From contig JAHLKH010000069.1 of NCBI GenBank assembly GCA_025526915.1, positions 58,362 through 122,361 on the forward strand: a stretch of DNA of 64,000 bases. Reading direction: 5' to 3'. How positions within the stretch are numbered: the first letter of the stretch is position 1; each line of letters begins with the position of its first letter. The DNA comes from Entophlyctis helioformis. Its lineage: Eukaryota > Chytridiomycota > Chytridiomycetes > Chytridiales > Chytriomycetaceae. Position numbers and translations under genes: made by a program. Below, piece after piece: positions 13,495-33,056 of the stretch. The notes beneath the pieces were generated by a model that did no database searches, had not been told where the DNA came from, and saw nothing but the letters and a program-made list of their open reading frames with translations.

Positions 13495-13740
13495 CTGGGC
13501 CCGATATTCATACAATTACCAAGGATTTTGGAATTAAATTCGTCGCAAGAGGCGTCGAATGAAGCCCACATATCACACGATGGAAGGTTCGAGTCAGCAA
13601 CGAGCATGCGACGACAGGCGGGCGAGGCACATCCAACGAGGGTCTTACCTTTATCGTTAGAAAAAGTGACCCGTTAGGTCGATCGGGAGGTCCCCCGATT
13701 CAAAGTTGGTAGTCAAACAAGTCACTGTGTGGGATGCAGG
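13495..13740 (-). ncRNA. Candidate guide-RNA/element-end region downstream of the Fanzor exon (speculative)
   Basis: The stretch is visibly less GC-rich than its neighbours. It holds a short perfect hairpin: ATCGGG at 13682-13687 pairs with CCCGAT at 13694-13699. Fanzor and TnpB nucleases use an RNA encoded at, and overlapping, the 3' end of their gene, so this is where such an RNA would be expected. Nothing in the sequence proves transcription. No inverted-repeat end or target duplication of a Fanzor transposon could be fixed here. Confidence 0.15.
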
Positions 13741-16700
13741 TCAAGTGACTTGAGGGCAGGCTGTCTGCGTGTTGGTCGCTGCTGGACGACGGATGGACCG
13801 TGTCTTGAACGCCACAGGACGGCAGGCTGATCTGGTCCCATGAGGCCACATGCGACTTGAAGTGTTTCCGCGTTTGAGGCTGTGGGACAACAGGCGGAGC
13901 ATCTCGTGCACCAGCTGGATGAATAGATGCATTGCCTCGATGTCTGCAAGGTACTCTGTCGTGGCTGGATTGCTGTCGGCTTTGGTGTGTGTCAAGTAGA
14001 GCGGCCGGTGTCCAAAGAGCAGATGCCACAGTGCGACCATCCCGATGTTGGTGGCTCCAAGCACATCGCGGTGGTAGACGGTCGTGCATGGTATGCACTC
14101 GTAGCGTCGCAGGTTGGTGCGGTTCTCGTATGGGATCCGCTGCTTGCACTGCGGGCACATCTGGCTGGTCAGGTTCTCGTTGCAGCGGTAGATCTGTGTG
14201 TGTGTGTGTGCATGATCGTGTGTCAGTTGGTGCACAGATGGATGGATGGATGGACAGCATGGCATCAGACGCACATAGGCATATCCAGATGACCGCAGAT
14301 GCCTGATGAGAAACCTCTCAAACACAGCGTGCCGGCCACCTTGACCTGTAAAGTCGATGCCAAATGCCCACACAACGGGAATGTCCTTCTCTGTTGGCTT
14401 GTCACAGCGGCCTTGAGACGCAGCAGATGCGCGCTCTCCAGTGGTCGAGCCTGCCAGCTTCATGATGCCCTCAAGAGCGTTTCCGCGATCAGACGTGCGG
14501 CTGCTGCGCATGGTGAACCGCTTGGCCTTGACCTTCTGTGGAATGCCATGCCATGCCATGCCATCCAGTGCAATCAGCAGGCGATCAAGCAGCTTGGCGG
14601 CCGTGTCAATGGGCATCCAGAACAGAGAAACCGTACCCGTGCATTCAGGAATGGCGTGCAGTACGCACGGCAGCGCAGATCCCAAAAGGCTCTCTCGCCA
14701 GGCTTGATGTTGGATCGGCATGCTTTGCTGTCTTGAATGCAATGGCCGCCTGGATGTCGGCTGCCTTGGCATATCGATTGTTGAGCCTGGCACAGGAGGC
14801 AGGCACTGTGAGTTGATCTGGTCAAGAGTGCGCGTGGCAGAGTCATTGCATGCATACCACCGCTGAAAGTCACGCTCAGCTTGAAACATGCCAGAGGAGA
14901 GCACGTAGTTGGACTCGAGCTTATACGAAAAGTCTCTGAGATCAACCAAGATGCTGGATGCGCCATACAGGTACCGCTGGCCCCAATCAAAGCTGACAAC
15001 GCGAACAGTCTGGTAGCCTTGGTCAGTGAACAGATTGTTGGCGTTGATGATGTCGCGCAGTCGCTGTGAGGCGTAAAAGTTGCGCTTGCCCTGTCATGCC
15101 ATGACATGAGTGAGGAATGTGCAATGCATGTGCACCAATGCGCGAGGTTGGCATGCAAGTGGCTTACAGGATTGGTCCTTTTGGCTTGGTGGCTGACGGG
15201 TTGGCTGGATTGGCGGCTGTGGATGGCATGTCAGTCGGTGTGGACAACAAGTGCTTGTCTGGATTGGCACAGCAACTCACATTCGCCGTTAATGTAATCG
15301 GGCTCAGCCATCAGCCTCGTCAACAAGCCACGGCTGCTCGCCTGAAGACGCCGCGTTGGGATCTGCAGATCAAGGCGGCAGTCAGAACCAATGTGTGCAC
15401 CAAAGCATTCAAGCACGCCACATACACCAAGGTGACTCTGGACGGTTTGTGCGGCAGTCCAGTGCCAGCTGGTAGATGCTGTATCCATCTGTCATGATGC
15501 TGCCAAGTAGGATCGCCTTGGCTGGTCTTGCTGGACGCACAGCATCAATCGCAGCCTTGATATGCTCCTCGCGCTCCTTGCCATCCAGACCCTGCTCGTC
15601 GGCCTCTCGCGTCGCCTTGGCTGTGGCATTGGCAACCGCGTCCATCTCATCTTTGGCTTCTGAAGGTGTCTGGAAGCGACCTTTCTTGGGGCGGAGACCT
15701 GGGAGAAGGATGTCAAAGATGCAAACCTCGCGACTTGCGCTGAATGCGTCTTGGATGTCCTTGTTGGATGACGCAAGAGCTGACTTGGCATCTTTGTAGC
15801 CTTGGAGAAAAGTGCAGTGTCAGCATCAAATTGTGTACACATGGCATATACAGGCAGTGCGACCAACCAAGTGCAGCCAGAAGCTGTAGTCTCAATGCCT
15901 GCAAAGCAGGATCCTGATTGCCACGGATGCGCTCATCCTTTGTCCTCATCACCGCCCAGAAGAGGGTGGTCTCAGTAATGAGGACAAACGGATCGCGGCC
16001 TGCAGGCTGCGGACACAGCTTGAGGGATGAGCCTGCGAGATCACACAACTGCTTGAACTTGCCGGCCTCTGACAGCGACTTGTTGCGCACGACCGCCGTG
16101 AGCCTGTGCAGTGCTTGTGGGATCTCGACAACGCGTCCGTCTTGTCTGGTCGACAGTGGCGTGCCAGACGTGGCGTCCCCGGTGGCTGTATCCATTGCCT
16201 TGGCAAATTCCACTGCCTTGTCAGCAGATATACCAGGAATCAGTCGGTGGATTGCCCAGTCAATGAGCATCGACTGGTGGGTCATGAAGTGCACAGCAAG
16301 CATGCCACAGATGCCCCGTGCCAGATTTTTGTAGATGTTGTTCCAAGCAGCTGCACACAAACTGTCGTCAAGCCTGCCAGGCAAAACGGCATGCATCGTG
16401 CTTGCGTCCATGTGCACAATGGCTGACAGCAATGAGCCGGCCTGCGTCGCGTCCATCTTGGCTGCCCGCGCCACACCAGCCCGCATCTTGGTCATGCTGT
16501 CCCGGATCATCTGCTGTGTCCATTCGCGGTTGATGATCATCTGCATGATGGTCACAATCCACGAGTGGGCCACATGCTTTGTCGCCCGCGGCATGACCGA
16601 CTCCTGACCGGTGAGAATGTAGCCCAGGTATCGCAGGAGCATATTAACAGCACCCTCGCCACTAGAGGTGCTGTTTGTGAGCACCTTGAGCAGATCATTT

Positions 16701-18634
16701 GCCGATGGTACTGCCCGTTGTAGTGGTGGCTCGATGGCTGGTGGTTGGGCATCGGTGCTGCTGGATGCGGCGGCTACTGCTGCTGGTGCTGCTGTTGCTA
16801 CTGCTGGTGCTGTGTCGTGGTGAAGGTGCAGATCTTGACCATCGTGCCCGCCTCAAGTCTCACCAAGTCGCCATAGTGAGCAATGTCGGTGTTGCTGCAG
16901 AGCGGGCCCTTGCCGTACATGCGCCGGGCATTAACTGGCCATCTGAGGACGCATCCAGCGGCGTAGAGCCACACGCTCTCGTCCTTGAAGGCATCAGGAT
17001 CAATAAAGACATATTCCATCTCACCATTCCTCCTGGCCTCCATGACGCAGAACTTGAGTGGCAGCGGTGCATCTGGGTCAAGTGCGACGAGCTCTTCGAC
17101 GATGGCGCCGATCATAGTGATGCATGCACGCCGCACGTTGGCCGTGTATCGGTACACGCCGTTGAAGATGCTTTCTGAGACCGAACCGCGGGTCTGTGTT
17201 GCCGGCGCCGTCTTGGCCTGGCGTCCAAAATACTTTGCAAGCATTGGATCTCCAGAGAGCATTTCCTGTGTGTAGCACAAGTCAACATACACAAAGCCAG
17301 ACATGCAGAGCGACATGGCAATCCAAACTCATACCTCCATTTTGACGATCTGCTCAGGGCGATCGTATGTGCTCTCCACTGGCCTTGCCTCATTGCCATG
17401 GATGGCAGCAGCAGCCGTCATGACTGGCAATGCCATCATGCGGTGGATCTTTTCAAGCATCTGCAGTATCGCCGATCTTTCACCACGCTCGTATCTGTCA
17501 AAGAACGCACCGGTCAGCACACACACTCAAGGCACATGCCATGCCATATGCCACTTACGCCCGTGTCTCGTCCTCAGATGGAGCCTGGCGGGCTTGCCTG
17601 CTCGCATCCTTCTTGTGCTCCTGGATGAACTTCTTGGTCTTGGCCTTCTCAGCTTGCTCAGCTCGCTCCTTATCACGCTCAGCCTGCATGGCCGGTGTGA
17701 CCAGGTATGGATCCTGCCGTGGTTGAATGCAATGTTAGGCATGCATCTTGAATGTGCACAAGATGCTCGCAATCACAAGCCTGCAGTTCAACTCACAGTC
17801 GTCCTTGTGTCTTGAAGCACACCAATGTGAAAAACCTTGTCGTGATCTGTGCCTCTGTCATCTGCGGCTCGAGGTGGCAGCAGCATCTTGCATGGTTTTG
17901 GTGGCTTGACGGCCTGTTGAGTGGAAGGATAAGCAATCGCAGCAAGCCGTCACATGCAAACAGAGCCAGCAAATGCAAAGACGCACCGGTACTCGATTGA
18001 TAATTGACTGCAGCATCTGCTTTGCTTGGTCATAACACTCGCCAAATTCTGATGCTTGGAAATCAGCATGCCTGACATCCGTTGGGTTTGTCAGGGCGTT
18101 GAGTGTCTTTATGGCCGTTTCGCGAATATCGGCAACAGCTTCTGGGGTCGCAATCCGTGTGCTCCTTCTGAGAGGCTGCTTTGTCTTTTTACCCTTGACT
18201 GTCACACAAATGCCGTGATCAGTGGTGAATACACAATGCCACACTGTGTCAACCCGTGCAGAGCAAACCTGGCTTCTTTAGACGCCTGAAAGATGCGCAT
18301 TTCAAGCCTGGATACTTCTTGAGCCGCTCATTCAGTCTTGCTATCACCTTCTGCTCGGCCAGTAATGGATCAAGCCGACAGCATTGAAGATCAGCAACAG
18401 CATGCAGTGGACAGCCAAGACACGCATCCAAGCCTCGCAAAACCCACCAATCCATGATAAAGAATCTTGCCAGCCGGGCTGAGCCTTGCATATGCTTCTT
18501 TAGCGATACGCCAGTCATGCACAGCCTGCAGCAGCTGCTTGCTTGCATTCTCGCAGATATCAGCAAGGATGTCGCGGCCGTTGAGAATGTCGTCGGCAAG
18601 GAGGTCTGCCGTGCATCGGAGAACGCAGCTAAAC
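13741..18634 (-). CDS. Fanzor (eukaryotic TnpB) nuclease half of an XPG-Fanzor gene, split by a retrotransposon
   Basis: Continues the gene that starts at 27004. Exons that splice cleanly: 18629-18448, 18350-18269, 18198-17987, 17913-17797, 17713-17559, 17494-17335, 17265-15868, 15800 to about 15450, 15090-14275 and 14193-13741. One or two small exons between 15450 and 15090 are unresolved, and one base seems missing near 16810. The long helical middle part leads to a Fanzor-like motif SIMTDGYSIYQL. RuvC-I is VVSFDWGQRYLYGAS (Asp at 14986-14988). RuvC-II is NENLTSQMCPQC (Glu at 14176-14178). The zinc ribbon is CPQC...CIPC. RuvC-III is HRDVLGATNIG (Asp at 14065-14067). All three catalytic acids are present. 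Known Fanzors are RNA-guided DNA endonucleases; the guide RNA is not identified here. Separated from its 5' half by the chromovirus, so probably not expressed as one protein now. Confidence 0.75.
18630..18634. repeat. Target-site duplication TAAAC (left)
   Basis: Five bases abutting the left LTR, identical to 25289-25293. Five bp is the usual duplication length for Ty3/gypsy integrase. Confidence 0.9.
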
Positions 18635-18891
18635 TGTAGCACTGGGCCTCCAGGCAGACTTGCCGGCTGGTTGCAGGGGCAGTGAGTATGCACGCGAGGA
18701 AGGGCGGGCAGACGACTTCATTGAGACATAAGCACGGACCTGGTTTCAGGGGCAGTGAGTATGCACGCGAGGAAGGGCGGGCAGACGACTGCAAGAACGG
18801 GGGCAACCAGAGCGGGGAACGCGGCCGGGCGATGTCTGTCCGGTCACGTGGGTCACGTGGATCACGTGACCGCGACCGAGCATCCGTTACA
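18635..18891 (-). repeat. 3' LTR of the chromovirus (257 bp)
   Basis: Begins TGTAGC and ends GTTACA, the TG..CA ends of an LTR. It equals the other LTR except for two substitutions noted near its left end and a 73-bp internal duplication. The duplicated core GGGGCAGTGAGTATG..ACGAC occurs twice around 18676-18789. Three CACGTG E-boxes sit at 18845, 18854 and 18863. Confidence 0.9.
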
Positions 18892-18899
18892 CTCCCCCC
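18892..18899 (-). promoter_or_regulatory. Polypurine tract
   Basis: Reads GGGGGGAG on the minus strand, immediately before the 3' LTR, the expected plus-strand primer site of an LTR element. Confidence 0.7.
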
Positions 18900-18944
18900 A
18901 GCGTAGACAGCCACTCATAAGAAAGAAGAGTGGATGAACAGCGA

Positions 18945-21900
18945 CTAAGAGGATGCAGGGGCGTTGCACACACGAGAGGCAGAAGTGCGGGCAACGATGG
19001 ACGCGTAGGACACAGGACGGGGAACCGTGCGCTCAGAGCGGCGAGGTGGGGCGGGATGGTTGAGAGGGGGGAGAAAAGAGAGAGAGAAGGAAGGAGGAGA
19101 AGAGGGAGGAGGGAGAGGAGGGAAAGATGGAGAGAGAGAGGGAGATGCGGGTGCAGCAGGTGCGATCGGCTCGTCAGCCGGAGCAGGTGCCGCGGGCGTG
19201 GCTGCCGCTGGAGCAGGGGCCACTGGTGCAGGAGCAGGCGCAGTGCGCTTGCGGCGAGAGGGCTTGGATGCCTTGGGCTGCGTGGGAGCGGGCGCCGCGG
19301 CGGGAGCAGGAGCAGCCGGTGCAGGAGCAGCCGGAGCAGGAGCCGCGCGCGTGGGCTGAACCGGTTTGGACGCCTTGCCCTTAGGCGCCTTGGTCGGTCG
19401 AGCGTGGAACGCCTCGACGAGGTCCTGGGCCTTGCGCATGTCGGCGGCTGGGACCCATGTGTTGTCGTCGGCTGGATAACCGACCCACTTGACCAGATAC
19501 TCGATCTTGCCGCGATAAGTGCGCGAGTCAACGATCCGCTCGACCTCGTAGTTGTCCGACGTGCCGTCGTCGGCGTGGTACTCGGGGTCCGGCCGGGAGG
19601 GCACATCCTTGCGGCCGGTGGGCGCAGACAGAGGGTCACGTATGGGCAGATCCGGTCAGCATGGAACACGTTGTGGACGCGGTGCAGCGAGGCAGGCAGC
19701 GCGAGCGTGTAGTTGAGGCCAGATTCGCCAGAGTCCAGGCTGGTGATGGCAAAGGGGCCGAGCCACTTGGCGGCCGTGAGCGGCGGGCGGTGCGAGTCCG
19801 CCGGCCAGGAGATGCCCTCAGCATTGAGGAGCACCATGTCGCCGACCTTGTACGCAGGGTGACGGCGGCGACGCTTGTTTGCCTGAACGGCCATGGCTGC
19901 CTGGGCTTTGCGCCGATTCAGAATGGCCGAGTCGCGAGCAGCAGCCATGTCCAGCAGCAGGTCGCGGGCCGCGGCAGATGGTGCCAGGGCTGGCTCGGAC
20001 GGGAAGGACCGCGGGTGGCGGCCAAACGCCAGGAAGAAGGGTGCAAAGCCAGACGACGCAGACGGCGCGCAGTTGAGGCCAAAGCAGGTGGGACCGAGCA
20101 GCAACGGCCAGTCAGAGCCGTGGTAATCGGCCGCCTTGGCGAGCGCATCCTTGATGGTGCGGATGCTGCGTTCGGCCAGGCCGTCAGTCTGCTGGTGGCG
20201 AGCCGTGCTGAGGTTCTGCTTGATCCGGGCAGCGGTGCAGAGGCTCGACCAGAAAGCCGACAACCAGCGGGCGTCGCGGTCCGAGACGATGTCGACAGGG
20301 AAGCCCTTGCCCGAGCAGACCCAGCGAGTCAGGAAGAGCTCGGCCAGCTCCTGGGCCGACGACGAGCGGCGGCACGGGAACGCGTCGCAGAGACCGGACA
20401 GGCGATCGACCACAACCAGAGCAGCATCAAACGCATCGTCTTGTCCGCCCGCGGGCAGGAACATGACGTCCATGGCGACGCTCGAGAAGCAGTCGTCCGG
20501 GATCGCGAGTGGATGCAGCAGGCCGTCAGGCCGGTGGTTGGGCGTGCGGTGGCGCTGGCACACGTCGCATGAGGCGACATAGGCAGCAATGTCCTCAGAC
20601 ATTCTGGGCCAGAAGTACCGGTTCGACAAGCGGCTGGTGGTCCGCTGACGTCCCTGGTGCGCACCGAAGGGAGAGTCGTGGTAGTGGGCGAGCAGATCCG
20701 CGCGCAGAGACTGCGGCACATACAAGCGGTTGCCTTTGTACCACCACGCACCATCCAAGCACTCCATGTGCACTACGACCTTGCGGTCGGCCGGCGTGGC
20801 AGACGACGGGTCGGCCTTCCAGCCAGGCAGTCTGGAGGCAAATGGGTCGGCCGGCAACGCCGCACGCACGTCTTTCGCCCAGTCAGAGTCAGTGCGCAGA
20901 TTGGCAGCACGGATCGGGACAGGCGAGCGACAGTTTGTGCAGAGAGGGGCCTTTGAGGGATCGCGGGACAGCAGATCGGCCAGCGAGTTGAGCTCGCCAG
21001 GCACGTACTCGATGGATGTATCAAACTCCTGCAGAGACAGGACCCATCGAGCCTGCCGATCCGACAGGTGGGGCTGCGTGGCCAACCAGACCAGCGCCTT
21101 GTGGTCAGTGTGCGTGACAGAGCGCACACTGGACAGCAGATGACGGAAACGCGAGAAGAACTCCACGATGGCGAGCAACTCGCGTTCGTGGGTTGGATAG
21201 TTCATCTCGGCTGGGCTAAGCTTACGTGACCAGCAGGCCACCAGCTTCTCGCCATCTGGGTGGATCTGCGACAGGTAGCCGGCAATGACGTAGTTGCTGG
21301 CATCAGTGTAGACATGCGTTTCCAGAGCCGGGTCAAAGAACCGCAGCTCGGTCGCTTTCAGCACTGCCTGTCGCAGGTCTTCCACAGCCTGCTTTTGAGC
21401 AGGGCCCCACTCCCACTTGGCATTCTTGGCTAGCAGCTTGTAAAGTGGCAGACACATGGTGGCGTACGCCTTTGCAGGGTTCGGCCCACCAATGAATGAC
21501 TTTAACCACACAAGCTTGCCAAGCCAAGTTGCCAGAGTGGTTGTGTTTGAGATGTGTGGCGCTGCTGCCATGTCCTGCAAGTGCTTTGGTGCAATGGAAT
21601 AACCAGTGGGCGAAAGCACGTGACCGCAGAACTCAATGTCCTGCTGCAGGATCATGCACTTGGACGGCTTAATGTACAATTGAGCCTCCAGTAGCAGCTT
21701 GAGAACAGTGCGTAGGTGTTTGATATGCTCCTTGTACGTCGCGCTGTAGATGTAGATGTCATCCATGTACACCGAGACGCACGTGCCCAGCAGCTCATTG
21801 AGCGTCGACTGGATGGCTGTGTAAACACAGCCGGAGCATTGGTCAGCCCAAAAGGCATGACCGTGAACTCAAAGTGACCAAACTGGGTGGAGAACGCAGT

Positions 21901-24900
21901 TTTCCACTGGTCCTCCGCCTTAACACGAATGTTAAGGAAGCCCTCGCGGATGTCAAGCATCGAGCGGAAGGGTTTGTTTGCCAAGTTATCGCGGAGGGTC
22001 TCAATCTCCGGGATCGCACTGTGGAACTTCACCGAGATGTTGTTCAAGCCGCGGTAGTCGATGACCAACCGCAGCGAACCATCCTTCTTGCGGACAAAGA
22101 GCGTGCCGGCGCCCAAAGGCGATGACGAGCGGCGGATGTAACCTTTGGTGTACCACTCGTCCAGCTGCTTCTTGAGCGCTACGGATGCATCCTGGTTCAG
22201 TTTCTTGAGGCCACGACGCGGTGGCAGCTGCGCATCCTTAATGAAAGGGATCGCAATCTCGAACTCCGAGTCGTGCGCGCGGCCTTGCGGCGGGCAGCAG
22301 ACCTCATAGTACTCGATGAATGCCTTCTGCGTCTCCTCGTCCGGGCAGACTGGAAGGTAGGGGTACTTCTCCTTCAGCTCGTCCGGGGTGAGGCCGTTTG
22401 CGGCCGCGACGCGAAGGCGCGCATCGGCAGCTGCCTCACGGTCCTCAGGCAGGTCATCCACATAGACCAGCTCCGCATACTCGTCAGGATGGGCGAGGAT
22501 GTCCGACATGGTAACCACGATGTCAGAGTGCGGCCGGTTGTGGGGTGCAGCAGACGGCGGAGCGTCTTCGTGCTGCCAGATGTGGTGTACATCGGGGCGC
22601 GACTCGGTTGAGAAGCGGAAAACGCCGCGACGGAAGTTGAATGACGCCTTCGCGGTGGTGCGCAGCCACGGCATGCCCAGGATGACATCATCCACACCGT
22701 CATAGACAAGGAACCGCACTCTGCCAACAGCATCTGTTCTGTCAGCGAGCGTGAGGTAGACCTCTGAATCTAGCCTCTGCAAGTTGCCGTTGGCAAACTC
22801 GAGAGTCACCGCCTGCCGGGTGAACGGCCGGGCAGCGGCGAGCAGGCCGTTGGCATCCAACCAACGGCGAGCCACTAGATTCGCGCTGCTGCCAGTGTCC
22901 ACCAGGACGCTGGCGCTGCGATTGTCTAAGAAGACAGGGAAGGTGCACCGGTTCTCTGTGATGGGCATCACAGGAGCCAGGTGCCCCTCCTTTAGCCGCG
23001 ATGGCGGCATCACAGGACAAACAGGGTGATCAGGGGCCACAGAGGGCAACCTTTTATTCGCATCAGCCACAACTGGACTACTCTTCTTCATCTGCGTCGC
23101 TGTACTGGGTCCCGTCGTCTGAGAACGACGAGACGGTTTCGAGCGACCGCGAGCCGGAGCCATTGCTGGTGCGCCGTCGTCACGGGCAGGGACCGATGGA
23201 GGTTCGGTGTCAGCATTGGGCTTACGCACGGCCGCAGGCTTAGCCGCCGAAGCGTGCTTAGCCGCAGGAGCAGGAGGAGCCAGAGGGGGCGAGCGAACGT
23301 ACCCGGGTGCCTTGGCCTTTGCCGCGATGCGCCCGACCTTAGAGTGGGGCGGGCGCTGGCTAGGCGATCGGCTGGCATGGTCGGCTGTCGCAGCGGGCGA
23401 GGCGGCCTTACGCGTTTCAGATGCGCTGTTGTTGCCAGAGGGCGCAGGAGTGGCCTTGGGCGATGAGGAGCTCCAAGAACGCGGCGACGCGGCGGCTGTC
23501 TTGCCAGAGCTGGGCGTCGACTTGGCGTCTTGGGCCTTGTGAGCGTTGGCGAGGGCAGTGGCAATTGCAATGTCACGCTCGTGTTCCTCCGCGCCTGAGT
23601 GTCGCTTGATGAACGCCTCGCGGAGGGCCGAGTAGGTCGTGAGCGAATCCCATGCCTCGGGCTTGTCCTTGATGCGCGTGCGGAGGAATGTGAGCCTCTC
23701 CGCCTCCGTAAGCTGGGCGTCCTCGAACAGCCGCTCGGCTGCATGCAGCCAATCCTGCGGGACACGGCCATGGCACTCAGTGGGCGCAAAGTCACGCTCC
23801 AGCTTCTGGCGAGCCTGGCCTCGGACTCGTTCCGGGGCACTGTGGCGCGACACGAGGTCCGCAAGGAAGTGGGCGAGCGTCGGGGGCGGATCGTCTGTCT
23901 TGAGCGACTTGAACCAGGCGGTGGCGAATACACGGGCATCGCCTGTGAGGAGCGTCAAGAGGGTTGCACCAATGTCGCTCAGGGGGATCGCGTCCACGCC
24001 GGTTGCCTTGCAGGCGCTCTTGTAGGCCATCTCGATGGCCAGGACAAACGGCTCGAGGCTCTCGCGAGTGGCGTTCCAGTTGACCGTCAGCTGCGAGCCC
24101 TTGACCATGACAAGGCCGTTGAACGGCACCTGTCTGCCAAGCGATTCCGAGAACACCTTGGCCAAGTTTGGTGCACGGGCTTCCACGGCTGCTGGCAGGC
24201 GAGCATCCACCGAGGATCCCGACGCGTGGGCCGGACGCGAGTCCACCGAGGACCCAAGCGCCTGGACCGGATGCTCCGCAAGCAGGGTCGCCGTGGCTGA
24301 GGCCTGCGCCAACGCAGCGTTTGCCGTTTTGGTGGCCTTGGCGACGGCATCCGAGAAGACCTGCTCCAGTGCAATCACGGATTCCGACGTGTTGGCGACG
24401 CTCTTCTGCAGGCCCCGTATGGCCTCTGAGTTGGCCTCGACAGAGTCAAAGAGTGCCACCAGGCGTTGATGGTGGAGCTGGGTGGCGTTGGAGTAGGCCT
24501 CAGCCTGCCTGGCGGCCATGTCGCGGTCCGACTGCAGCTGAAGCCGCAGATCGTCGATGGCAGCGTGGGCGGCGGCCGCAGATGATGTGGTCGCCTTGAG
24601 TGCTCGGCTGGTGTCTGACGCCCCCGTGTGGAGGCGCACGAGTTCGTAGAACATGTGCTCTCCAGTGATGGTGAAGGGCCGCCTGGGGGCACTCCCAGCA
24701 CCGGGCTGGACGGCCGGCGTGCTGGAGAGGAACGCCTCTTGGCGCCGACCAGCGTCTGCGTCGTGGCGGCCCAACAGATCGGCCGAGGAGTGGCGGCGCG
24801 CTGGTGAGGCGCCAAAAGACGCGCCCAGAGCAGAGTCGGCCATCAAGACGGACGACGTACCCACAGGGTCGGGGCGGTGCTGGGACCTTGGGGGGGTGGC

Positions 24901-25014
24901 GTCGATGAACGAGCGGGCCGTATCGAACGAGGCCTCGCCGAGGAGGTCCTGGTCAGTGCCCAAGGGGGCGGCGGCCGAGCGAGCCGCGGGCTGGGGCGAG
25001 CGCTCGACGGCCAT
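18945..25014 (-). CDS. Chromovirus gag-pol polyprotein (two apparent single-base gaps)
   Basis: ATG 25014 opens Gag: coiled region, then the Gag core LEPFVLAIEMAYKSA..., with no CCHC zinc knuckle seen. Protease has VDTGSSANL at about 22885-22915. RT runs about 22300-21500 with VYMDDIYIY at about 21750-21775. RNase H has VYTDASNYV. Integrase has an HHCC-type region ending CDVCQ and DDE residues in AMDVMFL, SDRDARW and GLAERS. GPY/F-like KWLGPFAI comes next, then a chromodomain (YEVERIVDSRTYRGKIEYLVKW) at about 19560-19400 and a long Ala/Pro-rich basic tail. The frame breaks once in RT (about 21815, after VFTQ) and once after the GPY/F module (about 19637). One added base at each point gives 6072 nt, 2023 residues. 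Either two inactivating deletions or assembly errors. Confidence 0.9.
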
Positions 25015-25104
25015 CCAAAGGAAAAAAAAACGGAAAAACGACGGAAAAATCGATCGACGGCGGCGGGGAACGACGGCCGACGGCGTCGAGAGGGCGGTTC
25101 TTGC

Positions 25105-25288
25105 TGTAACACTGGGCCTCCAGGCGGACTTGCCGGCTGGTTGCAGGGGCAGTGAGTATGCACGCGAGGAAGGGCGGGCAGACGACTGCAAGAACGGGGG
25201 CAACCAGAGCGGGGAACGCGGCCGGGCGATGTCTGTCCGGTCACGTGGGTCACGTGGATCACGTGACCGCGACCGAGCATCCGTTACA
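25105..25288 (-). repeat. 5' LTR of the ch romovirus (184 bp)
   Basis: TGTAAC..GTTACA ends. It carries three E-boxes (CACGTG) at 25242, 25251 and 25260 with 9-bp spacing. It lacks the 73-bp internal duplication found in the other LTR. Confidence 0.92.
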
Positions 25289-25293
25289 TAAAC
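25289..25293. repeat. Target-site duplication TAAAC (right)
   Basis: Five bases abutting the right LTR, identical to 18630-18634. Confidence 0.9.
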
Positions 25294-27004
25294 ACAACAC
25301 GGCAGCCATTGAGCATGACAAAAACGTCGTCCAGCCACCTTGTGTTGACAATGTGCTTGGCGAGCACCATGACTTCATCCCGTGTAACGTGCCAAACCGC
25401 ACCACTGGCATTGCCCTTCCGCTGCTGTGCCGTGTGGCTCAAGCAGCAGTTGCTGTAGGCCGTGCATGCAGAGGCAGATCTGCCAGTGGCATCCATCAGA
25501 ATCAGTGCCATGAGAATCCTCCAGAGATCACAAGCATGCCAACTTTTTTCGAGCCGAGGCGGTCCTGTTGGCAGTCCTGCTGTTGCCATTGGATGATGCA
25601 TGCATTCATGTCAATGCCATGCTGTCCAAGTGCATCCCAAGCAAGACTTACAGCGGTATCATTTGAGCAAAAACATCCCCATAACAACCATGGCTTTGGT
25701 CTGTGAACTCTCCAATATCCGCTCCAGTTTCGTCACGGTCGAGAAACACCGCGAAGGCATTGCTGAACGATTGAGCAAGAGGCTTGCCGCCGATCTTGTA
25801 CATCTGCAACATAAATGAGGCCTTGAAGACGTCCACAAACATCCTGGCAAGGTCTGGGTCTTGCAGGCGTTGACAGAACTCTGCGACAGTGATCCCTGCC
25901 CATGTTGCCTCAAAACGAATGCATGCCATAATGCACTTTGCAGCCGTGACAATCCCTTGCAAGTCATCATTGCAGCATCACGCATAAGTCAAGGTCGCAG
26001 TGCATGGCATCCAAAATTGCAAAGCAGGCAAGCCAGCATACCAATCTCATCACAATGAAAATAGTCATTTCTCGCTGCTGCTGCTGCCAACCGGCAGATG
26101 TCAAGAATCTCTGGCAAGCCAAAGGTGGCTGCAATAGATGCTACACCTGGGTGGTTGTATGATCTTATCTGTGCAATCTGTCTGCCGCGCATTTGCAGCA
26201 GCAGGACAGGGCAATAGCCGGCACAATGAAAGATGAGGTCGGTATCACCACTGATGACGACGACCGGCACATTGCTGTCAAGAAAGGCGTGTGAGCCATG
26301 GATTGGAGAGGCATGCAGAAGATCCAACCAACCTTGCTTCGCGCACGCGGCATGCAATGCAAACATCCGCCTCATTATCGCAAAGGCACACAGATGACCC
26401 TTCCCCAAAGTATCCAAGAAGACCCCCAATGGCCCCACAGATTGCCGCCTTACGCTTGCATGTCAATGGAAACGCCCACTGGAGTGACTGGATCTCGTCC
26501 CTGGAAGGGCACTCAGTCAGCACGGCATGCAAATCAACAACAGCAAGTGGCATACTTTGTGAGCCTGTTGCCTTTCTGGTCTGCTTTTCGCTTGGCCACC
26601 ATTGTCTGGATCGACAATGCTGCTTCCAAATTTACCCGTGCCCGCTCAGTGCGGACAGCCTTGATATTGGTGTTGAGAAGCGAGCCATTGACATGGAGCC
26701 GGACCATGTGGAGCTTTCCAATTGATGCTGCGAGGCTGGCAATGAGCGGCTCGAGTGTCGGCGTCCAGTTTTCCTCTGGCTGTGCCAGCAGTATTGGTGC
26801 TGCTTTGTAGATATCGCCGGCAAAAAGACTGAGAACGTCCACATGCACAACACACTGGATGGGCGGACACTCTGTGTTGTGCTGCTGCAGTGTTTGATGG
26901 GGCTGTACCACGACCTGAATTGCACCCGAGAGAGGGTTTGTGGGATCAAAGGTTTTGCTACCACCTGCTTTGTCGATGGGAGGAGTCGCGCCGACGACTC
27001 CCAT
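25289..27004 (-). CDS. FEN1/XPG-like PIN nuclease half of the XPG-Fanzor gene
   Basis: ATG 27004 (MGVVGATPP, as in XPG-family N-termini). Exons: 27004-26556, 26500-26333, 26274-26042, 25955-25652, then an exon from about 25575 into the insertion site. XPG-N: CVVHVDVLSLFAGDIY (Asp at 26837-26839) and KLHMVRLHVNGSLL, where the usual FDG aspartate is Asn (26687-26689). XPG-I is created by splicing: DNEADVCIACRVREAS, then VPVVVISGDTDLIF with Glu 26371, Asp 26365, Asp 26244 and Asp 26238. A helix-turn-helix-like part follows (FGLPEILDICRLAAAA...YFHCDEIGGIVTA), comparable to the FEN1 H2TH. The family cuts flap or bubble DNA with two metals. The 3' end of this half joins in frame across the transposon to 18629. 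The acceptor near 25575 lies beside an A6 run and is not settled. Confidence 0.7.
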
Positions 27005-27446
27005 GTGTGTTGGGCGTGCTTGTTGGTTTGTTGTTGCGTGTTGTTGTGTGTCGTGGCAAGTCGCGATCTGGTGTTTGCATTGACATTCTCTGATTGTTTG
27101 GCAGCAATGAATGGAGCACTGGTCTGTGTGTGTGTGGAATGGCATGCTCCTCAGAGAGAGAGAGAGCGTTGCACATGACTATGCATTCGTCCCTCTTTAT
27201 CCATGGAGGACACACACGCACCGCCCAGCGAGACAGCAGGCGCTGCTACCTGCACCACTGCCGTTGCTGTGCTCGCATCGCGCAGTGTCAGCACTTCTCA
27301 AGGGCTCTCTAGATCGACCAATCACAGCGATTCCAACAGGATTGACCAATCACAGCAATTCCACCAGGGGTAATGGTATGAGAACCGGGCCTGGATTTGT
27401 GGTGAATTCGTTACAAACGCACTTAACGAGCAAGCCAAAGAGTCGA
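27005..27446 (+). promoter_or_regulatory. Divergent promoter with paired CCAAT boxes
   Basis: Separates the XPG-Fanzor start from the NDUFB2-like start. Two GACCAATCACAGC elements lie at 27318-27322 and 27346-27350 (28 bp apart), 97-129 bp before the complex I ATG. CCAATCA is the HAP/NF-Y site, common in promoters of respiratory genes. A short (AG) run lies at about 27157-27169. Confidence 0.55.
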
Positions 27447-28234: not shown

Positions 28235-31200
28235 CTAGATGGGCTGGATTCTACGAGTAGGCGTGGGCGAGTGTGAGTGAGTGTGGGGGAGGGATCCGGG
28301 CGGCGCTGGCGACTTGGTGAACATCTGGCTGAGGAGCCGCCAGAGGGGCCGGTGTCGCGACGCGGCGAGATCGGGCTTGGTGGCTATGGCTGTGGTTGTA
28401 ACTGTGGCTGTGGTTGTAGATATGGCTGTTGACGGGCTCGAGCTTGGGCTTGGGTTGATGGGCCGGTAGGCAGGCGGCAGAGGGAGCGATGCGGCGTCGA
28501 GACCTGGCGGCGTGATGGTTGATGTGTTGGAGCTGCTGAACGAGTTGGATGATCGCCACGCTGTCGTGTCCGTGGGCGGCAGGTGCGAGTGTGCGGGTAC
28601 ATGCGCGTCCATCTTGTCCAATGCCGGCTCGTGGGTCTGCGGGGTCTGTACCGCTTGTGGCGGCATGTGCACGGCTGGCGGCTGGGGCTCGTGGCGAGAC
28701 GGTTTGACAAGCCGCCCTCGCGACTTGAATGGCCGGCTGTTGGCTACAGAGACTGTGCGCAGTGACGAGACGGTCGATGACGACGACGACGACGAGGATG
28801 TTGCGTGCGGCTGTGACAGAGGTGGTGTCGGCCATACCAGCACATCGGCAGGCTTGGATGACCGCGATCCGCGCGAATCGGTCAGCGATGTCCTGTCGCT
28901 GGACGCGAGCGTCGACTCGGACGGCATGGCGTGCATGGCCGACAGATCGCTCGGCTGCTGCCCGCGTCCCACGGCATCCTGGCTTGCCGCCTGCGCCGTG
29001 CGATCGCCCTCGCTGTCGTCGTCATACTCTGTCCTGTTGGCAGCCGTCCCAGCACCATCGCCGCCCGCAGACCCATGCGCAGCAAGCGCAGCAAGCGTGA
29101 TCACAGGCCCGCCGGCCGCAGGCACATGCGACAAGTCCAGCAGATGCTCCAGCTCTCTCAGCAGATCCGGCGGCTGGCCGTCAGCCGCAGCCTCTGGCGT
29201 CGTGTACGGCTGCACCACCACGTCCACAACAACTGAGCCGCGGTCGACGCGTGTGGGCTGCTGGCCTGGTCTCGCGGCCGCCGGCCGTCCTTGCCACATC
29301 GACTCGACGGATCCGGGCAGTCCTCCTCCGCCCGCTCCACCTGCTCCCTTCCGGCCATCATCGACCCTCTCGCGCGGCTCCCCGTTCTCGCTCGCAGCCC
29401 CTGTGCCATGGTCGCCTCCACCCTCGGCCACCAACAGACTCTCGGAATTCCATGCACGCAGCGGCTCGATCTTGCTGCCCTGTCCATCCCGCCCTGTACT
29501 ACTGCCACTGCTGCCCGCAGCACATCCTGCAACCATGGGCGCCACGTCAGAGAGGAGCAGCAGTGCCGGGCTTGGCGACCGCGAGTCGCGCGGCGTGGGG
29601 CATCCGCCCGCGAGCGAGCTGATGCTCGCACAGAGCGGCAGCAGCTGGCCGCTCTGGATACGCGATATGCGGTACAGCGAGAGATCCAGTTCGTCAAACA
29701 GCGGTGGGCCGTCCAGTGGCAAGGCGGGCGGGTCGCAAGGATCGTGGCCGTCGTCGACACTGCTGTCGTCGTCGTCGTCGTCGTCGTCGCCATCACGATC
29801 ATCATCATCGTCGTCATCGTCGTCGTCCTTGTTGTTGTTGGCATTGTTGCTGGTTGCTGGCTTTGGCTCTGGCTCCGGGTCAGGCGTCATGGGAGCCGAC
29901 GCATCAATGACGACAGCAGGCTGCTGCACGAGCTGGGACGGCGGTACGGGTGCTGGTGGTCGCGAATGCTGCCGTCGCACGAATGCCGGTCCGTGTCTTG
30001 GCAACGCCAGTGCCGGCGTCGTGTGATCGAGACAGTCCCTTTCAAACGACACGCGTGCAGGGACCATGGTCGCAACAAACTCGACAGTCTGCCTGCGACG
30101 TGCGTATCCCGTCATGGAGACGGATGACTCCACATCGCCAATCTCCTTGATGGCTGCTTCAAGGATCGTCGCATCGTCCTGGACCTCGACTGTTGTTGTG
30201 GTCTGCGCGGAAGTGGCATCCGCACCGGTGCCGTGTGCAGCCACCGGTCCACGAGACACGACACGATCCATGGCCATGTGTTGTGGTTTGTGCAATGGTG
30301 CGGGTGGCGATGGCTGCAGGCAGCCATAGTCTGCATCGTTGAGCGCGAGGAGAGAGTCGAGGGTCGCGTCTGCATCCAAGAGGTCTGGCGATGTATCGGC
30401 GCGCGTTGATGGCCGGCCAGACGACCCTCTGATCCCCAAATACGATGCACGCGATTCTCTGAACCCGGTGCCGGTGCGGCGGGGGTTGCGGCGACGCGAC
30501 GCGCTGCTGTTGGTGCTGCTGGCTGTGTGCGTGCTTGCGCCAGTGCCGCTATCCCTGCGTGCCGGGCTGGCTTTCGCGGTCGTCGCTGTTGTGATTGGTG
30601 TGACTTTGAACGGCTGCTGGCGGCTTGCGTGCCGTTGCGGCGTCATTTCGCCCGTGCCCGACTCTTGATCCGAGTCTTTGCTGTCGTCGTCACTCTCGCT
30701 CGTACCGTCACCGTCACTGTCGTCTTCGTCGTCGTCTGACCAGTTGAATGTCACCTGCCCTTGCCCGCGCTCAAGCTCCACCTGGCCATCGTGCTCGACT
30801 TGCACCTCGTCGTCATCATCATCACCATCATCATCGTCGTCGTCATTGTCATCTTCCTCCTTGTCCTCATCGTCGTCATCGTCATCACCAAGCTCGCCAA
30901 CGCCACTCGCGTGCTGTCCAGCAGTCTCGCCACTCGCGCCTCCGCGATCAAACGCAGCAACCAGATCCTCGACACGCGAGATGGATCGGCACCTGACCGT
31001 CTCGCTGAACGATATGCTCTTGCGTGCACCACTCACACCCCCGCTGCCACCCCCACTCCCACTTGTCTCGGTGCCAAGAACCGTCGCACCGGTGTGTGCT
31101 GCCCGCCGATGTCCACGGAACCGCACGCGGCTCTCTCCGCTCTCCGACAGCGGCGCATGCGCACCAAGCGACGACGACGACGACGCAGACCAAGGCGGCG

Positions 31201-33056
31201 TCAACATGGACGTGGATGCTGATGTCTGTGGCGATGCACTCGGCCCCGTCTCGGGTCGTGCAGACGACATCATATCGTTCCATCGCTTGTTGATGGACCA
31301 GATCGACTCGCGTTTGGGTGGGACGGGGTTCCAGCCGCGAGTGCCGCTGCTGCTGCCACTGCTCCTTGGCGTGGTGCTCGCGTGCCGGTCGTGCCGGTCG
31401 TCGTTGCCTTCGTCATCGCTCTCCGTGTCAGCGTCCGTGCCCGACACGGGTTGGTGCGTCCGTGCAAGCAGCGGCGGCGGTGTTGGTGGAGGCGGTTGTG
31501 CTGGCAAGGAGGCAGACGGGGCGGCTGGTGCATTCGACGACGACGACGACGAGGACGCGGGCGGCGACCACATTTTGGAGCGGCGCAGCGAGAGGGCGAG
31601 GGAGAGCCGCGATGGATGGCCGTTGGGGATCTGTTGCACGTGTTGCTGCTGCTGCTGTTGCGGGGCCGGAGGTTGGAGGGATGATGGCGTGCTTGGGATA
31701 TAGCCCGCGCCGCGGCCAGACGATAGCGCCCCGCGTGTTGGCTGATGTGGTGCGGGATGGCTGTCGGCGGGATGCGGCTCGTGTGGCGGGAGACCTGCCG
31801 AGCCTGACGCCGATCTGGCTGGCGGGCTGTGCACGGGATCGCCGGCGCTGGAGGGCGGCTGGTCTGGCGCGACGGCAGGCGACAGCGGCGGCGCGGATGT
31901 TGTGCGCAGCTGAATGCCGGTTGAGGCGGGAGGCGATGGACGATGGACGTGGCTTGACAGCGGGGACTGGTGGCCGACGGACAGCGTCTGGTACTGGTGC
32001 TTGTGGTGCAGATGTGCGCTGTGGTGGTTGTGGTTGTGGTGGTGGAACGGCGGTTGCGACACGATGCCGGCGGCGCGTGGGAGAATGGTCATGACGGTTG
32101 TTTTGGGTGTGGGCGAGGTCACGGCATGCGAGACGCGTGCGTGGAAGTAGCCGCTGCCGTGCGGCTCTGGTGGGCTTATGGCGTTTGGGTGGGATGGCGG
32201 TGCCAGTGCGTGTGCGTGTGCGTGTGCAGGCGGCTGCTGGTGCGGCTGTTGCTGGTGTAGGACAGCCGTGTCGCTGTTGAGGGTCGAGATGGATGCCGAC
32301 GACGCAGAGACTGGCGACTGGCGCGTCGCTGGGTTGCGCGACAATGCACTGGACAGCAGCGAGCCTGTGGTGGCGTGTTCTGCCTGCTGCGGATGGTGGT
32401 GGAGGTCAGAGGCTGCTTTGGCTCGCGACTGGTAAACGACCGAGACGGGCTCGACGGCAACAGGCACCAGACAGGGCGGCGCGAGCGGCGCCAGCTGCCG
32501 TCCGACTTTCGATGGGCTCTGCAGATCCAATCCGCACACGTCGCGCCAATTAGCACTCGATCACAGAGCAGCATGGCCAGCAGACCGGGCAATCACCACG
32601 GCCAAGATCGCGCTGTCTCGCTCCCTGCATGCATACCTGTGATCCTGCCGAAGCCGCCACTGGCGCAGCGCTGGCAGGCGAGTGCCCTGCACCTGTCGGC
32701 TTCTTGACGTTGAGCAGACTAGGTGCCGCACCAGACGCGATACGCACGCGACTGGCCAGCGCCGGATCGCTGCCTGGTGTGTCGGGATGCGCGGGTGCCG
32801 ACCCTTCATAATCCGTCACAAAGACCACCGACCCGTCCGCGCTCTCGCCGCTCCCCGCTGCACCCACCAGGTCCGACTTGGCCATGGTCAGAGCCGCAAT
32901 CGGCGACATGGCGCTGGCGGCGGCTGGCATGGGCGTGGCGCCTGCGGCTGATGTCCCAGCATGCTTGCGATGGGGTCCTGCCGAGCTGCCTGGCGGGCTG
33001 GTGGGCAGCGTCGGACCACCAGCGGTCTCGAACAGCGCCAGACCAAAGAGCTTCAT
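28235..33056 (-). CDS. Large disordered acidic protein, two exons, unknown function
   Basis: Exon 1 33056-32637 and exon 2 32518-28235 (GTATGC..TGCAG, phase 0) give 1567 residues. Starts MKLFGLALFETAGG. Almost all of it is low complexity: His/Gln runs, Ser/Pro-rich tracts, and two long Asp/Glu runs near residues 690-720 and 990-1020. Short ordered-looking islands are NPVPPKRESIWSINKRWNDM, then RKSISFSETVRCRSISRVEDL and YRISRIQSGQLLPLC. KSISF fits the (R/K)x(V/I)xF docking motif for protein phosphatase 1, which would suit a scaffold or regulatory subunit, but this is only a motif match. The plus strand of the same region shows long antisense ORFs caused by codon bias. Confidence 0.65.

Follow-up and report, generated by a model that had tools for sequence, protein, structure and literature searches.

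The locus considered here raises the question whether an XPG/FEN1-type nuclease and a Fanzor-type RuvC nuclease, both readable on the minus strand of one stretch of the genome of the chytrid Entophlyctis helioformis (29.6 Mb, 482 contigs), are two halves of a single protein. The window, meaning the whole stretch of 64,000 nucleotides that was analysed (C69:58362-122361), had received a first-pass annotation that proposed a composite XPG and Fanzor gene. Our results point on balance to a DNA element, some 7.2 kb long and bounded by terminal inverted repeats (TIRs), whose one spliced gene encodes an XPG/FEN1-like N-terminus, a long middle region and a TnpB/Fanzor-like RuvC and zinc-ribbon C-terminus, with a likely guide RNA at the 3' end. 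The proposal of one gene with two such halves stood up on splice sites, reading frames, coding constraint and the linkage of the halves in many copies; the strict labels "Fanzor" and "XPG/FEN1" came out weaker.

The gene is best followed in an uninterrupted copy on contig C139 (L041), which has 18 exons, 17 GT-AG introns of 55-199 bases and 5,271 coding bases, giving 1,756 residues with no internal stop. The window copy occupies 13497..27391, including a chromovirus in exon 5, as established by DNA alignment to this natural copy and by ends that are conserved where the flanks differ; like all element features given below, it lies on the minus strand. Its two parts outside the chromovirus, 27392-25289 and 18634-13497, align to L041 at 96-97% DNA identity, and 17/17 GT donors and 17/17 AG acceptors are kept. 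The exon positions of the first-pass annotation, from the ATG at 27004 toward 13741, agree with this alignment; the end point did not, 13741 being the end of a shifted frame and the L041 stop corresponding to window 13702-13700. The "single-base gap" and unresolved joins reported there are probably one-base length differences from L041 in five exons. The chromovirus, a Ty3-type long terminal repeat (LTR) retrotransposon with a chromodomain-like stretch (18635..25288), splits exon 5 into a 5' portion (25289..25452) and a 3' portion (18448..18634) that begins at the second GTTTA; in the window GTTTA flanks the retrotransposon on each side, and L041 has it once, at the site without chromovirus. 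Because exon 5 is interrupted, and because exon 13 (15281..15362) is one base longer and exons 11 (15868..17265), 14 (15168..15216), 16 (14637..14786) and 18 (13700..14193) are each one base shorter than in L041, the window copy is a pseudogene. An LTR-like insert whose end sequence is that of the chromovirus also lies in exon 5 of the copy on contig C239, which has another LTR-like insert in exon 8.

Two further copies, L043 and L044, bear on whether these exons form one coding sequence. Like L041 they have no chromovirus at this place and align through it; their exon borders were set by alignment to L041. Each has 17/17 GT donors, together with 16/17 AG acceptors in L044 (the aligned exon 12 acceptor lacks AG) and 15/17 in L043 (one miss is a border set 1 base off, the other the aligned exon 13 acceptor). 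The complete L044 model is broken from exon 13 onward by an insertion (7 stops). Exons 2-12 of L043 are open in the L041 phase, and for 10 of these 11 the difference in length from L041 is a multiple of 3; exon 6 is 4 bases longer with the donor used, a difference that would vanish with a GTAGGT donor lying 4 bases upstream. In the XPG part L043 has 36-46% of residues in common with L041 and L044, which are closer to each other. The Nei-Gojobori point estimates of dN/dS between L041 and L044 were 0.29/0.67 for exons 1-4, 0.22/0.44 for the bridge exons 5-10 and 0.27/0.77 for exons 11-12; those between L041 and L043 were 0.51/2.63 for exons 2-4, 0.57/1.19 for exons 5-10 and 0.37/1.17 for exons 11-12, dN being the lower value in every section. 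The bridge between the halves, which past exon 5 consists of exons 6 (18269..18350), 7 (17987..18198), 8 (17797..17913), 9 (17559..17713) and 10 (17335..17494), looks constrained by these estimates. Two observations weigh on the other side: single exons practically without dN<dS (exon 10 vs L044, 0.039/0.039; exon 6 vs L043, 0.80/0.81), and a database search in which none of the best 7,994 candidates scored, with proteins of 966-3,073 residues, contained both halves. Since the window keeps all 34 splice dinucleotides and the bridge exons look constrained, one gene is likelier than two, and we hold it highly probable that the XPG-like and RuvC halves belong to one gene.

The join between exons 4 and 5 is where two neighbouring genes on one element would be told apart, with the XPG-like gene stopping close to where exon 4 ends and the RuvC gene beginning at an ATG right in front of exon 5. 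The exon 4 donor of L041 is overlapped by a TAA; in both L041 and L044 the donor used is downstream of its position in the other copies, and no good donor is present at the aligned site. These features would suit two genes, yet a possible exon 4 donor sequence is found in 7/7 copies read (GTAAGT in L041 and L044, GTATGT in L043, GCAAGT in L072-L075), and the frame is preserved across the join despite shifts of donor and acceptor, which are by multiples of 3. Separate genes are again favoured by intron 4, the longest (199-215 bases, with the other L041 introns at 55-97), by an ATG directly ahead of the conserved CCLSHTAQQ in L043 and C239, and by the lack of a protein spanning both halves among those scored; however, the NCBI model P0011 joins exons 1-5, splicing exon 4 to a mini-exon within intron 4 and then to exon 5, and exon 5 ends with GTAAGT in the three further copies reaching it (L072, L074 and L075; in L073 exon 5 was not matched). 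Taken together, this makes two genes quite improbable. The GCAAGT of L072-L075 is the usual GC-AG form, and the intron 4 donor is GT-type in three other copies. The end of P0011 in exon 5 had also been considered as a sign of two genes and was rejected, as an LTR-like insert terminates P0011 there. Other NCBI models join exons 11-15 (P0007, which leaves the frame at exon 16), exons 12-17 (P0001) and exons 17-18 (P0004).

The gene is not peculiar to the window. In the frame searches of the genome only the best candidates were scored, so that the locus counts are lower bounds. The RuvC search gave at least 119 matches (best 94 of 721 candidates scored) at no fewer than 93 loci, the XPG_I search at least 150 matches at a minimum of 131 loci, the XPG_N search at least 147 matches and the middle region at least 180; the profile PF07282 gave 150 matches among 205 candidates. 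At 58 of the 93 RuvC loci a same-strand XPG_I locus lies upstream at a distance of up to 13 kb (the median is 5.0 kb, and 46 of the 58 are at 4-6 kb), and at one it lies in the wrong place or on the wrong strand. The other 35 out of 93 are without an upstream XPG_I partner, some of them near contig ends; ten plus-strand RuvC loci are less than 5 kb from the contig start. Seen from the other half, 66 of 98 XPG_I loci on contigs below C219 have, within 14 kb downstream on the same strand, the 28-base core of the conserved 3' block described below, 57 of them at 5-7.5 kb, and four have it in a wrong arrangement (among the core sites listed, 100 of 188, all exact, up to C219). From these counts across the genome's loci, the association of XPG and RuvC parts is a property of the element and not of this window. 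An arrangement with the halves always unlinked, which the first-pass annotation had named as evidence against its reading, was not seen within the E. helioformis genome. The exon chain is not a product of chance, because L041 has 1,756 stop-free codons and 58 of 93 RuvC loci show the two halves in co-linear order, against one in the wrong arrangement. An artefact of assembly or of reading, in which an insertion had set unrelated exons side by side, might be suspected from a window copy that is broken and interrupted by a chromovirus; its probability is negligible, the same order being present at 58 loci on many contigs (46 at 4-6 kb) and L041, L043 and L044 aligning through without the chromovirus, and assembly artefact is refuted by these co-linear copies. 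The element is present in E. helioformis in about a hundred copies, of which one or more retain an open frame together with the motif acids.

The C-terminal part is encoded by exon 15 (14858..15090), with the RuvC-I aspartate within DWG, exon 16, exon 17 (14275..14535), where the canonical RuvC-II region reads VVWAFGIDF, and exon 18, with ENLTSQMCPQC (the shifted RuvC-II glutamate and the zinc ribbon) and HRD (RuvC-III). In L041, exon 18 contains NENLTSQMCPQC...CIPC...HRDVLGATNIG. The Pfam family PF07282 (Cas12f1-like TNB domain) matches the window frame at 3.1e-9 and L041 at 7.6e-10, with 39.3 bits against a cut-off of 26.3, and two NCBIfam TnpB models match at 6.7e-5 and 4.9e-4, both below cut-off. 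A long motif for TnpB and Fanzor, D-X(125,275)-[TS]-[TS]-X-X-[C4 zinc finger]-X(5,50)-RD, is given in PMC3627910; we found it in 4/4 sequences, with the last gap allowed 0-60 and amounting to 5 residues by eye. The Fanzor RuvC2 glutamate is placed six residues ahead of the zinc ribbon in PMC10711439, and this shifted glutamate (ENLTSQMC) was present in 4/4 sequences tested and in 15/15 distinct copies read. HRD was present in 14/15 distinct copies; the remaining one, L013, has its frame shifted there. PMC10711439 also describes RuvC1 DPG as near exclusive in Fanzors and uses a search expression with 120-160 residues from D-x-G to E. Against membership in Fanzor in the strict sense, RuvC-I is DWG in 15/15 distinct copies and DPG in 0/4 tested, and the D-to-E spacing is 183 (L044) and 186 (L045), so that the strict expression, in its form without P, fails in 4/4. 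A search of the PDB with the L041 RuvC part found nothing, and one with the RuvC profile gave nothing convincing, a designed RNA-guided nuclease and LaTranC appearing at E of about 0.6 over the zinc ribbon. The first-pass label "Fanzor" agreed with the long motif, with the position of the glutamate and with a zinc ribbon of TNB type, and not with RuvC-I or the spacing; because DWG stands for DPG and 183-186 lies outside 120-160, the C-terminal part is better called TnpB/Fanzor-like than Fanzor. A minus-strand frame of 450 codons at window 13741-15093 runs without a stop across three introns, exon 16 being read out of phase, and can mislead protein searches.

The N-terminal part comprises exon 1 (26556..27004, from the ATG at 27004), with the XPG_N-like aspartates of HVDVLSLF and HVDG; exon 2 (26333..26500), with the XPG_I-like motif ENEADVCIA; exon 3 (26042..26274), with the SGDTDL and NDYF motifs of the XPG_I-like part; and exon 4 (25652..25955), which opens with a helix-two-turn-helix-like GI..AAK stretch. 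In the resulting order HVD, HVDG, ENEADVCIA, SGDTDL, NDYF, GI..AAK, the last four have counterparts in sequences of the host that we take to be of XPG, EXO1 and FEN1 type, and the catalytic positions within the motifs are likewise those we assume. The aspartates of HVD/HID and HVDG are present in 3/3 sequences, D-x-D and the later D in 8/8 and EAD in 5/5 covering it, with close relatives among the eight. PF12813 (XPG_I_2) matches 3/3 alignment members (best E 2e-4) and is the top match in 3/3 NCBI models (0.0087-0.014), under cut-off in both cases; the host XPG sequences L001-L004 of the same genome exceed the XPG_I cut-off with 31.8-93.1 bits. An hhalign comparison with the host XPG/EXO1/FEN1-type profile set the motifs in register over 107 columns (score 27.2, E 0.0015), a score reached by 0/300 column shuffles; with other settings 20/300 shuffles reached the observed score, the three-sequence alignment gave E 0.04 and the RuvC control 0.28.

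Several results count against an XPG assignment. PF12813 is only third on the spliced L041 piece (0.021), after DUF7742 (0.017) and FAD_binding_4 (0.020), and every one of its scores is under the Pfam cut-off (14.8-17.4 bits where printed, vs 24.2). Pfam gave no XPG match on single window frames, PDB searches with XPG profiles returned unrelated proteins only and no XPG entry, the hhalign probability was only 17%, and the AlphaFold2 model of P0011 was poor (pLDDT 38). What remains of the "XPG/FEN1" label is the motif order, with Pfam matches below cut-off and a fold neither solved nor confidently modelled. From the motifs we regard an XPG-type PIN-like nuclease fold as quite probable, and do not rate it higher because other Pfam families outranked PF12813 on at least one of the sequences; nuclease activity would be less likely than the fold. 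The domain might instead be an RNase that matures the element's guide RNA, or be catalytically inert, with no role at DNA flaps. The families 5_3_exonuc_N and NYN_YacP, which are PIN-like, are also among the weak Pfam matches, and specificity is not readable from motifs; yet the motif order and the GI..A stretch past the last aspartate are those of the XPG/FEN1/EXO1-type host sequences, and we consider such an RNase or inert domain unlikely.

Between the two halves lies the long middle region, mainly exon 11 and followed by exons 12 (15426..15800), 13 and 14, exons 11-15 being joined in P0007. Pfam recognised no known domain in the middle region and no DDD/E transposase family. A search of the protein database with the full 1,756 residues found no homologue among the best 7,994 candidates scored, and searches with the RuvC and XPG alignments returned only E. 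helioformis proteins among the matches scored (10 and 4, respectively). These results bear on another explanation, that the element is an AcademX-like transposon in which the nuclease, presumably XPG-like in AcademX, is part of the transposition protein, a DDD/E transposase lies in the middle and a Fanzor-like gene was fused later, so that the element would move by cut-and-paste with the RuvC part as passenger or helper. The TIRs and the large middle without known domain would agree with this. So would the statements that Academ elements encode a helicase (AcademH) or a nuclease (AcademX) (PMC10045372) and that Fanzor1 is often captured by DNA transposons (PMC3627910). We nevertheless think it unlikely: the middle has no Pfam DDD/E transposase match, and AcademX target duplications are 3-4 bp (PMC10045372), whereas the few flank pairs here weakly suggest 6-8 bases.

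The 3' third of the element is alike even in diverged copies. From about exon 13 on, L041 closely resembles both L043 and L042 in DNA, introns included (89.5% between the window and L042 over 1.4 kb), although the XPG parts of such copies agree at only about 40% in protein, so the 3' module seems to have been exchanged or homogenised between lineages. This tempers what may be read from the conservation of the 3' end, since copies that are otherwise diverged are alike even in introns; its uniformity probably is owed to recombination or gene conversion and not to selection alone.

The interval between the stop codon and the right end (13497..13706 in the window) is a candidate guide (omega) RNA region and was newly found in this analysis. 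It begins with a near-invariant block (13706-13664), ACTTTGAATCGGGGnACCTCCCGATCGACCTAACGGGTCACTT, about 40 bases from the stop codon, and continues with a putative hairpin that varies with its pairing preserved. The block is nearly invariant in 35 distinct copies, with a mean column identity of 85% over the whole region; this set, collected with BLAST, is without L045 (match of 183 of 204), L042 (incomplete 3' end) and identical duplicates. The 28-base core of the block has 188 sites in the genome at up to 3 mismatches, and the backward pattern has 0. The stretch after the block varies in length and sequence, and pairing is possible in 5/5 folded forms, with outer pairs differing between forms; the z-scores of the hairpin fold are -4.9 and -4.1 in the two most changed forms and -1.6 to -2.9 in the other three. 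Folded as a single sequence, the 3' region is mildly unusual (z -1.95; 8/200 shuffles as good). Less favourable to a structured RNA are the small RNAalifold covariation term (-0.38), which is low because the paired columns hardly vary, and an Rfam search of the 3' region, which gave no match. In Spizellomyces punctatus the guide RNA is described in PMC10432273 as coming from the interval between stop codon and right repeat and extending 14-15 nt into the flank. By analogy, it is fairly likely that the 3' region, from stop codon to right end, gives a guide RNA running into the flank. Around window 13650, AAGGTAAG followed by TTGCTGAC resembles a splice donor and branch site past the stop codon, with no acceptor after it within the element by eye. 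The 188 core sites exceed the 93 RuvC loci among scored candidates, so that short or gene-less copies may exist or the RuvC list may be incomplete; the "ghost" elements of S. punctatus offer a comparison for such copies.

The ends of the element are GGGCCCGG...ATTACC and its imperfect inverse (20/24 positions by eye), and are common to copies with differing flanks. In the window the left TIR is GGCCCGGTTCTCATACCATTACC (27369..27391), common to copies whose upstream sequence differs and matched to the right end in the L020 form GGGCCCGG..., and the right TIR is ...ATGAATATCGGGCCC (13497..13520). Flank pairs scored in seven copies gave a mean of 2.9 for own pairs vs 0.3 for mismatched pairs; the own pairs are thus the more alike, but they are imperfect and of varying length, with no fixed size of duplication, and 1/7 is below zero. 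Four copies, L047 (C10), L061 (C166), L068 (C202) and L050 (C215), have the same 3' flank, TTATAAAGGATTTTTCAGATTTCGGG..., past the right end, and the two with 5' flanks read, on C10 and C166, differ in these. The common flank suggests a duplicated target, a one-ended event or read-through of the end. Upstream of the element, at window 28235-32560, an open frame of 1,441 codons with many low-complexity stretches lies on the minus strand.

On the simplest reading, in which a Fanzor-type element has coupled a structure-specific nuclease to its guided one, an RNA from the 3' region, extended into the flanking DNA, would guide the RuvC part to cut a matching empty site, and repair of the guided cut would copy the element back or keep it. 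The XPG-like part could trim 5' flaps or ends at the guided break. In its fullest form this would make one polypeptide of a guided RuvC cutter and an XPG/FEN1-type nuclease, with its own guide RNA, which cuts a programmed site, processes its own flaps and spreads by break-and-copy without a separate transposase; we put this forward only tentatively, as a possibility with less than even chances.

Among described systems, SpuFz1 of S. punctatus is close in several respects. It is a RuvC nuclease with a C4 zinc ribbon and RD and has the glutamate six residues before the first CxxC; it belongs to a TIR element in a chytrid with a conserved untranslated region from stop codon to right end; and copies with Gypsy/Ty3 insertions have also been reported (PMC10432273, PMC10711439, PMC3627910). 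It differs in being a 2.1 kb locus with one open reading frame of about 630 residues, whereas the gene described here has 18 exons, 1,756 residues and an XPG-like N-terminus, and in having DPG and a 75-nt scaffold where DWG and a 3' region of about 200 bases are found here. The TnpB proteins of IS200/IS605 and IS607 resemble the RuvC part in the D-hydrophobic-G of RuvC-I (DWG), the zinc ribbon, the sub-cut-off NCBIfam matches and the 3' RNA region; the present gene is, in contrast, eukaryotic and intron-rich, with a shifted glutamate and an XPG-like domain fused to it. The acidic motif order D, D, E-x-D, D-x-D, D, then GI..A, is that of XPG, FEN1, EXO1 and Asteroid, but here the profile scores are under the Pfam cut-off and the domain is part of a mobile element. 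AcademX, which we compared by description, is likewise a DNA transposon that encodes a nuclease beside transposition functions (PMC10045372); the element differs in that no Pfam scan here found a DDD/E transposase. We know of no TnpB/Fanzor part in AcademX.

Fanzor proteins are described as roughly TnpB-sized or somewhat larger, and the portions of PMC10432273, PMC3627910 and PMC10711439 that were available do not mention an XPG partner. Literature searches within one library turned up no described XPG-Fanzor fusion, and the first-pass annotation knew of none either. A natural fusion with an XPG-type nuclease, if true, would give eukaryotic RNA-guided systems a new architecture, and would offer a clue to the way in which such elements mend or make use of the breaks that they cause. 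The occurrence of a TnpB-type DWG together with a Fanzor-type shifted glutamate bears on the origin of Fanzor. The system can be tested now, because this chytrid genome holds about a hundred natural copies, one or more of which keep an open frame and the motif acids.

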